Source of the DNA: Caryophanales bacterium
Lineage (GTDB): Bacteria > Bacillota_I > Bacilli_A > RF39 > UBA660
Assembly: GCA_016290885.1 (NCBI GenBank)
Contig: JAEEVN010000001.1
Location: forward strand, 1 to 64,000
Direction: 5' to 3'
DNA length: 64,000 nucleotides
Positions 8,256 through 15,037 of this stretch are shown here, one piece after another (position 1 is the stretch's first letter; every line of letters begins with the position of its first letter). Both the position numbers and the translations under genes were made by a program. The notes beneath the pieces are model-generated. The model was not told the origin of the DNA, ran no database searches, and saw only the letters and a program-made list of their open reading frames with translations.

Positions 8256-8323
8256 TTTATATAATTATGATATCACAAAAAAAATATTTATTAAACTCTT
8301 AAATCATGTTATAATTTTTATGT

Positions 8324-8409
8324 GCTCCTGTGGCGGAACTGGTAGACGCGCTAGACTCAAAATCTGGTTTCCAAAAGAAGTATCGGTTCGATTCCGATCA
8401 GGAGCACCA
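8324..8409 (+). tRNA. tRNA-Leu (anticodon CAA)
   Basis: GCTCCTGTGGCGGAACTGGTAGACGCGC AGA CTCAAAA TCT ... GGTTCGATTCCGATCAGGAGCACCA. Confidence 0.94.
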
Positions 8410-8420
8410 ATATAAAATAA

Positions 8421-8445
8421 AAAGACTTGTTCAAAGTCTTTTTTT
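8421..8445. terminator. Bidirectional terminator after tRNA-Leu; could also end the minus-strand small-peptide transcript
   Basis: AAAGACTT GTTCA AAGTCTTT TTTT; the minus strand reads AAAGACTTTGAACAAGTCTTTTTATTTT. Confidence 0.75.
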
Positions 8446-8455
8446 ATGCTATTAT
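8427..8455 (+). promoter_or_regulatory. Candidate promoter for a short + strand RNA
   Basis: TTGTTC (8427-8432), 17-nt spacer, TATTAT (8450-8455); predicted TSS about 8463. Confidence 0.45.
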
Positions 8456-8462
8456 TTATTTA

Positions 8463-8535
8463 GAGGAACACTTAATTTAATTGAGTGCCATCCTTATTTA
8501 ATTGGTATGATACTCAACTAGAGTATCATTTTTTT
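8463..8535 (+). ncRNA. Candidate small antisense RNA (about 73 nt), convergent with and overlapping the 30-aa ORF's 3' end
   Basis: Starts at the predicted TSS, 5' near-palindrome CACTTAATTTAATTGAGTG, ends at ATGATACTC AACTA GAGTATCAT TTTTTT. Confidence 0.45.
8507..8535 (+). terminator. Rho-independent terminator of the candidate sRNA; overlaps the stop codon of the 30-aa ORF
   Basis: Perfect 9-bp stem ATGATACTC/GAGTATCAT with T-run. Confidence 0.75.
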
Positions 8536-8618
8536 ATTACTAATACCAGTAAGGTAAGTAGTGATAATATGATTGAAATATACATTAGAAGCTTAATTAT
8601 ATAAACTCTTTTGTTCAT
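8526..8618 (-). CDS. Unannotated 30-aa hydrophobic peptide MNKRVYIIKLLMYISIILSLLTLLVLVIKK; candidate type I toxin
   Basis: ORF read by hand; strong SD AAAGGAGGTGGTGAAATG; single TM with basic ends; below the ORF-track length cutoff. Confidence 0.6.
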   Translation of the reverse strand: MNKRVYIIKLLMYISIILSLLTLLVLVIKK

Positions 8619-8673
8619 TTCACCACCTCCTTTCTAGAAAAAGAGGATGACACTCTAATTAAATGTTCCATAT

Positions 8674-8679
8674 ATTATA
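8674..8679 (-). promoter_or_regulatory. Candidate -10 box (TATAAT) for the small-peptide mRNA; TSS about 8669
   Basis: Minus strand GCGAATATAATATATGGAACATTT; no convincing -35 box seen. Confidence 0.4.
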
Positions 8680-8715
8680 TTCGCAAAAAAAATAAAAATT
8701 CCCCTAGTATGTATA

Positions 8716-8740
8716 AAAAAAGACTCATATGAGTCTTTTT
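8716..8740. terminator. Terminator for the L,D-transpeptidase gene (bidirectional)
   Basis: AAAAAGACTCATATGAGTCTTTTT. Confidence 0.75.
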
Positions 8741-9750
8741 TAATCTACTATATAAACAGGTGTACCTATTTCTACCATATAATATAAATCTTCTGCTTTA
8801 TCAAGAGGCATGTTTACGCATCCGTGAGATGGATCATATGTATAGATATTTCCCCCAAATCTCCATCTCCAAGTTGCATCATGCATACCATGAGTTGAAC
8901 TTATAAATGGCATCCAGTAATATACAAATGATTCATATGGATCATCTGGTGGTCCTTTTAATGTTACATTTCTTGCTTTATTATTTAGATAATATGTTCC
9001 ATATGGTGTATTACCATTATTACCAGTTACTACTGGAGTTTCAAGGGCTATTCTTCCTCTACTATAATATGTTAACCATTGATCTCCAATTGATATAACT
9101 ATATATGTATTTTTAAATTTTTCTTGAACTATTATTTTTATTTCTTTAGTAGTTATATTTCCAGAAGAATCTTCAACAGTGAATTTTTCTATATATTCCC
9201 CCTCTTGAGATAAATCTAGATTATTTTCTACTTTTACTTTATCAGTTATATCACCATCACAATTATCAATAGCACTATATGTAGGTTCAGCATAATTGCC
9301 ATTTAAATCTGCATATACTTCCATATCAGAATTAATTGTTAATTCTGGTGGTATTTTATCTACTATATTTACTTTTCTTATAATAGTTTTATCTATATTC
9401 AAATTTTTAATTACTAAATTATATTTTATTTCATAAGATCCTATTTTAGAATAATCTATATTATCAGATATTTTTACATTTTTACTAACATCTTTCTTAA
9501 ATAAATATGCTTTATATCCTTCTTCTTTATATTTATCTTCTCCAACATTAAGTACTACTACATCATTACCTACTAATTTAAACTTTGTTGGAACAGCATT
9601 CTTTTTAAATACTAATAGAACTAAAATAAGAGCAAGGAAAAACAAGATTAATAATTTAATAATTAATCTTAATCTTCTATTTTGTTGCATTAATTCTTCA
9701 AATGGTAATTCACTATTTTTTTTACCCATAAGATCACCTTTTAAATACAA
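8740..9750 (-). CDS. L,D-transpeptidase (YkuD) with DUF5011-like Ig domain and N-terminal TM anchor
   Basis: STHGMHD...YTYDPSHGCVNMPLDKAEDLY catalytic motif; YAEPTYSAIDNCDGDITDKV Ig-like domain. Start is probably MGKKNSELP. Confidence 0.9.
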   Translation of the reverse strand: MYLKGDLMGKKNSELPFEELMQQNRRLRLIIKLLILFFLALILVLLVFKKNAVPTKFKLVGNDVVVLNVGEDKYKEEGYKAYLFKKDVSKNVKISDNIDYSKIGSYEIKYNLVIKNLNIDKTIIRKVNIVDKIPPELTINSDMEVYADLNGNYAEPTYSAIDNCDGDITDKVKVENNLDLSQEGEYIEKFTVEDSSGNITTKEIKIIVQEKFKNTYIVISIGDQWLTYYSRGRIALETPVVTGNNGNTPYGTYYLNNKARNVTLKGPPDDPYESFVYYWMPFISSTHGMHDATWRWRFGGNIYTYDPSHGCVNMPLDKAEDLYYMVEIGTPVYIVD

Positions 9751-13023: not shown

Positions 13024-14778
13024 CTATTCCTCCTCTACTACTTTAATTCCAAGTTCTTCTAATTGTTTTGGTTCAAGTACACTAGGTGATCCCATCATTT
13101 GATCTTGACCAGATGCATTTGGTGGGAATGCTTGAACTTCTCTTAAGTTTGGTTCATCTTGAATAATCATTAAGATTCTATCAATACCAGGAGCCATACC
13201 TCCATGAGGTGGAGCACCATATTTAAATGCAGTAGCAAGTGATGTAAATCTTTCTTCAAGAGTTCCTTTTGGATAACCAACCTTTTCAAATCCTTTTTCA
13301 AGTAATTCTAAATCTGTATTTCTAATAGCTCCTGATGCTAATTCAAATCCATTTGCTACAAAGTCAAATTGGTGTGCTACTATATCTTCTAAGTTAGCTG
13401 ATTCATAGTCTTGTCCATCTAAAACTGGTTTAGAGAATGGATTATGACAGAAATCCCATTTCTTTTCTTTATCATCATATTCAAACATTGGGAAGTCTTT
13501 AATAATAGCAACTTCTATTCTATTTGGATCAATTAAACCTAATTTTCTACCTAATTCATCTCTTATTTGACCAGCAAATTTTTGAGCTACTTTTAAATTC
13601 TTATTAGCTATAAAGAACATAACTGAATTTGTTTTCATATCGAATTCTTTTATTAAATTATTTCTTTCTTCATCACTTAAGAATTTATCTATAGGTCCTT
13701 TTAATGAACCATCTTCCATTAAAGTAATATATCCAATACCTGGCATACCAATAGATGATGCGAAGTCTACTACTTCATTAAACCAACTATTAGGTTTAGT
13801 ACCTATATCATCTACTACTATTACTTTAATAATAGATTCACTAAATGGTTTAAATGTAGTATTTTTAAGTACTTCGGATGCATCTTTAATAATTAATGGG
13901 TTTCTTAAATCTGGTTTATCAGAACCATACATATTCATTGCATCTTTATAACTAATTTGTCTAAATGGTTTTTCATTTACCTTTTTATTACTGAATTTAC
14001 TAAATACATCATAGTAAATATCACTACCTATTTCTAATATATCTTCTTCAGTTACATAACTCATTTCAAAATCTAATTGGTAGAATTCTAAAGTTCTATC
14101 TTTTCTTCCATCTTCATCTCTAAAACAAGGTGCTATTTGGAAATATTTATCAAAACCACCAACCATTAATAATTCTTTATATATTTGTGGTGCTTGTGGT
14201 AATGCATAGAATCTTCCTTTAAATTTTCTACTAGGTACAACAAAGTCTCTTGCACCTTCAGGTGAACTAGCTGTTAATAAAGGTGTTTGAATTTCGGTAA
14301 AACCTAAATCATACATTTTATTTCTTAAGAAATGTAATACTTCTCCTCTTAATTTAATATTCTTATTAACTTCTGGATTTCTTAAGTCTAAATATCTATA
14401 TTTAAGTCTAACTTCTTCATTTGTTTCTTTACTCAAATCTATTTCAAAAGGAATTTGTTCTGCTCTTGAAGATAATAATTCAAGTTTTTCACAAACTACT
14501 TCAACTAAACCTGTAGGTAGTTTTTCATTGATAGTTTCTTCATCTCTTCTGATTACTTCTCCTTCTACTTTAATAACAGTTTCTTTTGAAATACCTTTTA
14601 ATAGACTTTCGTCATGAACTACAACTTGAGTTCTACCATAATTATCTCTTAGGTCTACAAATTGTACTCCTCCATGGTCTCTAATTGTATCAACAAAACC
14701 ACTTAATCTTACTTTTTTACCAATATCACTTTCTCTTAATTCACCACAATTATGAGTTCTAAAAATATTTTCTTTCAT
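13024..14778 (-). CDS. aspS: Aspartyl-tRNA synthetase, probably non-discriminating given the gatCAB linkage
   Basis: Class II motifs: FVPSRKFKGRFYALPQAPQIYKELLMVGGFDKYFQIAPCFRDEDGRKDRTLEFYQLDFEMS; GGMAPGIDRI. Confidence 0.95.
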   Translation of the reverse strand: MKENIFRTHNCGELRESDIGKKVRLSGFVDTIRDHGGVQFVDLRDNYGRTQVVVHDESLLKGISKETVIKVEGEVIRRDEETINEKLPTGLVEVVCEKLELLSSRAEQIPFEIDLSKETNEEVRLKYRYLDLRNPEVNKNIKLRGEVLHFLRNKMYDLGFTEIQTPLLTASSPEGARDFVVPSRKFKGRFYALPQAPQIYKELLMVGGFDKYFQIAPCFRDEDGRKDRTLEFYQLDFEMSYVTEEDILEIGSDIYYDVFSKFSNKKVNEKPFRQISYKDAMNMYGSDKPDLRNPLIIKDASEVLKNTTFKPFSESIIKVIVVDDIGTKPNSWFNEVVDFASSIGMPGIGYITLMEDGSLKGPIDKFLSDEERNNLIKEFDMKTNSVMFFIANKNLKVAQKFAGQIRDELGRKLGLIDPNRIEVAIIKDFPMFEYDDKEKKWDFCHNPFSKPVLDGQDYESANLEDIVAHQFDFVANGFELASGAIRNTDLELLEKGFEKVGYPKGTLEERFTSLATAFKYGAPPHGGMAPGIDRILMIIQDEPNLREVQAFPPNASGQDQMMGSPSVLEPKQLEELGIKVVEEE

Positions 14779-14798: not shown

Positions 14799-15037
14799 AA
14801 AACAGTTATTAATCCCTACAAGGGACGAATAACTGTTAAATCCGTGGTACCACCCAAATTCATCATTATAATAATGACCTTTGATCTATAACGTTAGATA
14901 TACGTATTAACCTACTAATTTCAGTTAATAAACTCCAAGGTGTTCTTTCACAAATCTATCATAATCCATTTTCACCATCTAGGACTCTCTAATATGAATC
15001 GATATGTTACTCGTCCTTTTCTTCGTTTTTGCAACTA
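14799..15037 (-). promoter_or_regulatory. T-box leader upstream of aspS-gatCAB
   Basis: Minus strand AGAGAG, CACCTTGGAGT, CTGAAATTAGTAGG, GGGTGGTACCACGG T-box, terminator AACAGTTATTCGTCCCTTGTAGGGATTAATAACTGTTTTTT. Confidence 0.92.

Follow-up and report, generated by a model that had tools for sequence, protein, structure and literature searches.

Within the window, i.e. the whole 64,000-nucleotide stretch of DNA that was analysed, a small module lies between a tRNA-Leu gene (8321-8406, plus strand) and a gene for an L,D-transpeptidase-like protein (8740-9750, minus strand; named from sequence). It is bordered by two bidirectional terminator-like hairpins with T-runs, the first of which (8422-8447) lies on the tRNA-Leu side, at the predicted end of the toxin mRNA, and overlaps the antisense promoter, whereas the second (8713-8744), past the transpeptidase-like gene, forms the upstream border. 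Between these hairpins a minus-strand, toxin-like open reading frame (8618-8526, with a TGA stop codon at 8528-8526) encodes a basic, 30-residue peptide with a single transmembrane (TM) segment, MNKRVYIIKLLMYISIILSLLTLLVLVIKK, and is preceded by a strong Shine-Dalgarno (SD) sequence, AAAGGAGG (8633-8626, minus strand), in which GGAGG is near-invariant in the family alignment. On the plus strand, TTGTTC (8427-8432) and TATTAT (8450-8455), spaced by 17 nt and with a TG extension, constitute a putative antisense promoter (8427-8455). The RNA predicted to arise from it (~74 nt, 8463-8536, plus strand) is complementary to the stop codon and 3' UTR of the mRNA, and would end at a terminator (8507-8536) comprising a hairpin (8507-8529), with which a terminator scan agrees, and a T-run complementary to the Ile-Lys-Lys codons. 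The initial annotation had proposed the reading frame and its SD, the plus-strand promoter elements, the hairpin and T-run ending the plus-strand RNA, the overlap of that RNA with the stop codon and 3' UTR and the two flanking terminators, all of which were found in the sequence. Since the hairpin at 8507-8529 has a T-run for the plus strand only, transcription of the minus-strand mRNA has to continue past it, in the direction of 8447-8422. As predicted from promoter, structure and terminator, this mRNA would start with GGAAC at 8669, end at the 8447-8422 terminator (8669-8422, minus strand) and encode the 30-residue membrane peptide. Matches to Rfam within the window were limited to tRNAs and a T-box, with nothing near the gathering score in the element itself; the T-box leader (14818-15032, minus strand) is upstream of an aspartyl-tRNA-synthetase-like gene (13024-14778).

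The window copy of the peptide has a charge of +5 and a maximum 19-residue hydropathy of 2.90, and the family consensus is roughly MKKRxFIIKxLxxIxIILxLLxLLVxVIKK. A TM-like window is present in 82 of 83 distinct peptides, the median net charge of which is +6; small (<60 residue) hydrophobic peptides with a TM helix, as these are, are a feature of type I toxin-antitoxin systems. Conservation of the reading frame in relatives, which the initial annotation had set as a check, was evident among the 92 family elements extracted (partly redundant), with 0.39 synonymous versus 0.14 non-synonymous differences per site (125 close pairs). This purifying selection, together with the family-wide conservation, led to rejection of a chance reading frame. 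No significant match to the peptide was found in Pfam, NCBIfam, PHROGs, PADLOC or PDB, kinship to the TxpA and BsrG toxins being judged from the Pfam and NCBIfam profiles, and the APXXXGXXX (PxxxG) motif of Fst occurs in none of the 83 distinct peptides. By analogy, overproduction of the peptide would be expected to damage the membrane.

The candidate new module of the initial annotation holds, although not as one locus but as a member of a multicopy family. The element recurs at four other places in the same genome (alignments of ~200-300 nt), each with the peptide reading frame, such that this genome contains at least five family copies, counting the 8526-8618 locus. With a profile of the 30-residue peptide, matches were obtained in 74 of the 147 genomes sampled from the same GTDB family, a count that is slightly generous because some of the matches with E above ~1e-3 are chance hits within longer frames. 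In a sample of the order, 112 of 194 genomes were positive and all listed positives belong to that same GTDB family, while a class sample of 298 gave one strong match outside it (G430, E = 1.5e-10), at a locus (L114) with the complete element architecture. The family is confined almost wholly to one GTDB family of uncultured gut and rumen Bacilli; public titles of relatives describe MAGs of uncultured Bacilli, Erysipelotrichaceae or Firmicutes, several of them from rumen or gut. Positive genomes have between one and seven matches each, arranged in tandem in some, the genomic position of the copies varies and decayed copies occur, being frameshifted (L017) or truncated (L019). Family counts are of related copies, and hence not of independent events. 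Judged against the open-access literature, this is an apparently unrecorded, many-copy type I toxin-antitoxin-like family, which is added here to those of uncultured gut Bacilli with small genomes; both the toxin family and the RNA variant are regarded as new within type I systems, as opposed to a new kind of system.

No relatives of the element were found in IMG/VR, INPHARED or PLSDB, the viral scan having been conducted with two short peptide patterns only, and a phage or plasmid module was rejected on these grounds. Twelve of 60 elements (the 8463-8536 locus and 11 others, e.g. L015, L036, L080 and L108) have a tRNA gene within ~80-340 nt on the 3' side, always on the antisense-RNA strand, and 0 of 60 have one on the 5' side. 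The copies may insert downstream of tRNA genes, or make some use of this location.

The antisense promoter and terminator are conserved in their own right, which goes beyond the initial annotation. In relatives (e.g. L088 and L114), TTGACA-N17-TATTAT with a TG extension, closer to consensus than the window promoter, is located on the opposite strand beyond the 3' end of the element, and a sigma-A-type -35/-10 score of at least 11 was obtained for 67% of copies, as compared with 2.2% when sequence was shuffled; with a score of 10, the window copy has a weaker promoter than its relatives. Transcription of the antisense RNA from a housekeeping-type promoter is predicted by analogy. The terminator consists of a hairpin starting at the stop codon and a T-run complementary to the last codons of the reading frame. 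Indeed, the C-terminal Ile-Lys-Lys is encoded by ATA-AAA-AAA in 58 of 70 copies, as compared with 38% expected from codon use in the window, and Lys and Ile codons inside these reading frames are even less biased (the associated P value of 1e-14 is indicative only, the copies being related). In peptides with shifted C-termini (IKKTL, IKKDTL, IIEAM) the A-run and a GACACT stem are still kept, which points to selection on the antisense terminator as such. Past the stop codon, the next 45 nt fold to -10.1 kcal/mol on the antisense strand, versus -5.0 for shuffled sequences. The module therefore appears to have its own antisense RNA gene, as type I systems do, given the conserved promoter and terminator; complementarity to the mRNA follows from its position. 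Elements from outside the genus of the window, e.g. L088, L114 and L021, probably have an antisense start ~30 nt earlier than that of the window copy, and a 5' hairpin, GCAAG/CTTGC (with matched variants, e.g. GAAG/CTTC), ahead of the GGGAAC segment. One further element (L053, G031:C28:91000-91700) has a ~40-nt self-complementary insert within the antisense terminator hairpin, the rest of the element being intact.

Two copies retain an intact peptide reading frame and have lost the 3' half and the antisense promoter, L099 being interrupted by foreign, insertion-sequence-like DNA and L113 truncated at a tRNA, with TATGCT as its -10. For a potent toxin, an intact reading frame lacking the 3' half is difficult to explain, unless these copies are silent; no clear sign of a locked SD, which would account for their survival, was seen in them.

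A feature absent from the initial annotation is that the 5' UTR of the predicted mRNA (8669-8645) is complementary to its own 3' UTR (8493-8465). The closure comprises two helices on the minus strand, the first formed by GGAACATTTAATT (8669-8657) and AATTAAGTGTTCC (8477-8465), and the second by GAGTGTCATCC (8655-8645), which runs on into the anti-SD sequence CCTC, and GGATGGCACTC (8493-8483). The whole predicted mRNA folds to -77.2 kcal/mol (z = -9.1). Across 46 elements the mean energy of cognate 5':3' pairing was -32.2 kcal/mol, versus -23.0 for non-cognate pairing, and none of 10,000 permutations fell below -25.9 kcal/mol. When covariation was evaluated on the closure and stop-codon hairpin of the window copy, 91% of cells were found to pair, 18 of 29 pairs showed two-sided change, and the covariation score was 0.337, versus at most 0.123 with the partners slid. 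Compensating pairs in the closure include GGAACATT/AATGTTCC, GAAGCGTTTA/TAAACGCTTC, GTGTCTACC/GGTAGACAC and GTGTCATCC/GGATGACAC. These data indicate a conserved base-paired link between the ends of the messenger, which the antisense RNA would pull apart. Being the complement of the 3' UTR, the antisense RNA is a near repeat of the mRNA 5' UTR, and hence both RNAs share one 5' sequence, in inverted arrangement.

Terminal segments that are inverted, the scattering of several copies over each genome and the location of 12 of 60 copies just past a tRNA gene, in one fixed orientation, are also what would be expected of a small, MITE-like mobile element, with inverted ends and a reading frame devoid of regulatory function. 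However, the ends covary between copies rather than staying uniform, the reading frame is under purifying selection, and the antisense promoter and terminator are conserved. The mobile element on its own is accordingly most improbable, and was rejected as a full account by the covariation and the selection on the reading frame, although MITE-like behaviour could describe how the copies spread.

The effect of the closure on the SD was examined by folding. Opening of the SD costs 4.7 kcal/mol in the full-length mRNA as opposed to 7.2 kcal/mol after 3' truncation, the cost being higher upon truncation in 64 of 72 elements. Similar values were obtained for 28 elements when all sequence downstream of the reading frame was removed, mimicking the antisense-bound state (7.1 kcal/mol), or when the 3' UTRs were shuffled (7.0 kcal/mol). 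For the window copy, folding suggests that release of the 5' UTR lengthens the SD hairpin. The SD is still inside a local hairpin in the full-length predicted fold; it is partly hidden in both states, indicating that the switch is one of degree. In B. subtilis, binding of SR4 to bsrG increases SD sequestration from 4 to 8 bp (PMC6562991). Since the SD here is similarly more open in full-length folds, the favoured model is that the antisense RNA displaces the intramolecular helix, locking translation. In the free mRNA, the 5' UTR would be tied to the 3' UTR and would occupy part of the anti-SD sequence; the plus-strand RNA (~8463-8536) would pair with the mRNA (~8669 to ~8422) from the stop codon through the 3' UTR, taking over the latter, and the freed 5' UTR would then lock the SD more deeply. 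RNase III probably cuts the resulting duplex, as judged from the B. subtilis systems (PMC6562991).

The converse arrangement is known from hok and aapA mRNAs, in which closure hides the SD (PMC6733600). Applied here, closure would be the lock, with the full-length mRNA inert, 3' trimming activating it, and the antisense RNA removing escaped or nascent mRNA. The aapA and hok mRNAs are marked by a covarying 5'-3' closure (PMC6733600), the closed structure is very stable, and the SD does stay in a local hairpin of the full-length fold. Nevertheless, the rule that closure hides the SD and 3' trimming opens it is the opposite of what folding predicts in the 64 of 72 elements noted above, and an antisense RNA that pairs with the 3' UTR would undo such a lock, so this arrangement seems unlikely. 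At the level of sequence, relatives keep the reading frame, the SD, the antisense promoter and the antisense terminator, and the closure covaries. The type I reading of the initial annotation is backed by these family-wide features, on which the locus is best interpreted as a type I toxin-antitoxin-like module; such a module with a displacement-type SD switch, the switching upon antisense binding being predicted by folding, is probably the correct explanation. By analogy, we infer transcription, toxicity, RNase III cleavage and induction. A further proposal, to which slightly less than an even chance is given, is that the antitoxin is a mimic of the 5' UTR of the toxin mRNA that represses by strand displacement, and that the toxin promoters have moved between sigma-H-type and LexA control. 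If true, the locus would work as an RNA switch, with an antisense RNA taking the place of an intramolecular helix; the natural set of covarying copies makes such a switch directly testable.

The layout combines the 3' overlap of TxpA/RatA and BsrG/SR4 with a 5'-3' closure of the hok/aapA type. As in bsrG/SR4 of B. subtilis, the RNAs are convergent with a 3' overlap, the peptide is a small membrane peptide, and the action of the antisense RNA on the 3' part of the mRNA deepens SD sequestration (PMC6562991 for bsrG; predicted here). However, the 30-residue peptide has no kinship to BsrG detectable by family profiles, the overlap extends from the stop codon over ~73 nt as opposed to ~120, the antisense RNA is close to a repeat of the 5' UTR of the mRNA, the closure covaries, and there are many chromosomal copies for which a phage link was not found. 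The txpA/RatA pair of B. subtilis is likewise convergent with a 3' overlap of ~75 nt (PMC4147584), whereas txpA encodes 59 residues and RatA reportedly works through decay by RNase III, with the SD not hidden. Closure of the toxin mRNA by a long-distance 5'-3' interaction is shared with hok/Sok and aapA/IsoA, and the presence of several copies per chromosome with aapA/IsoA (PMC6733600); in contrast to both, folding suggests that closure opens the SD here, and the target of the antisense RNA is the 3' UTR, not the region where translation starts. The likeness to known type I loci drawn in the initial annotation was thus retained for TxpA/RatA and BsrG/SR4, but not for Fst/RNAII (par of pAD1). 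The latter shares a peptide of ~30 residues, convergent RNAs and repeated segments at both RNA 5' ends. Here, however, the shared segments are inverted, the only direct repeats in 8360-8760 being AT-rich or terminator ones, the overlap reaches the stop codon, and membership of Fst was rejected on the absence of DRa/DRb-type repeats and of the APXXXG (PxxxG) motif. A LexA-controlled toxin promoter (predicted in some relatives here), a separately driven antisense RNA and a peptide of similar size (29 residues) are found in tisB/IstR-1 of E. coli (PMC4147584), which differs in being divergent with a trans-type target, as opposed to convergent and cis, and the window copy has no LexA box.

Putative stress-type promoters ahead of the toxin genes likewise extend the initial annotation. 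The TATAAT that it placed before the mRNA 5' end is present (8679-8674), but is overlapped by a better-defined block, AGGGGAATT-N11-TGCGAAT (8705-8679, minus strand), predicted to be a sigma-H-type promoter. Compared with the sigma-H consensus RMAGGRWWW-N11-12-RRMGAAW (PMC4754846), 7 of 9 and 6 of 7 positions agree. All five toxin copies in the genome have GGGAAT-N15-GAATA at one fixed spacing. Genome-wide there are ten such sites, as compared with five for the reversed pattern across all allowed spacings, and the other five are just upstream of radC, a UvrD/PcrA-type helicase gene, topA, and genes for a peptidase-type ABC exporter and a MacB-like ABC protein; a looser match is located ahead of a DinD-like gene. 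A sigma-H-type regulon in this small-genome gut Bacilli MAG (G000; C14:34416, C33:11983, C36:15938, C30:22046, C45:161304 and C26:29514), in which radC, the helicase, topA, the two ABC proteins, the DinD-like gene and the five toxins share one promoter block, is possible. The genome encodes a 204-residue sigma factor that matches the SigH model at 1.4e-29, below the cut-off of that model, the gene for which adjoins an rRNA-methyltransferase-like gene (named from sequence), and a comEC homologue is also present.

A LexA matrix, derived from the boxes upstream of lexA in relatives, identified a box above threshold in 15 of 89 elements (L080 and L090 being among the relatives with one), 14 of them at the promoter position abutting the -10, a result reached in 0.3% of shuffles; no LexA boxes were found in 3' control stretches or at the toxin promoter of the window copy. 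The toxin promoters therefore look stress-linked, being of a predicted sigma-H type here and having LexA boxes in 14 relatives. These promoter types suggest induction of the toxin by DNA damage or a competence-type sigma factor, and the toxin would get ahead once its own inducible promoter fires, i.e. a sigma-H-type one here and a LexA-controlled one in some relatives. Stress-type promoters would equally suit an ordinary small membrane protein (e.g. a stress-induced regulator acting on a membrane complex), its amount held down by the antisense RNA and non-toxic at natural levels; small single-TM proteins need not be toxins, and copies without the antisense half (L099 and L113) persist. However, patchy presence, one to seven copies per genome, tandem and decayed copies and changing position are typical of toxin-antitoxin modules and not of housekeeping genes, and such a protein is considered improbable. 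In many relatives without a LexA box (e.g. L018, L047, L104 and L105), TTGTTCG(A/C)TTG is conserved near the toxin -35. Besides RpoD and the SigH-like factor, G000 encodes an unusual 695-residue protein with a sigma-70 region 2 domain (C36:6006-6197, L144).
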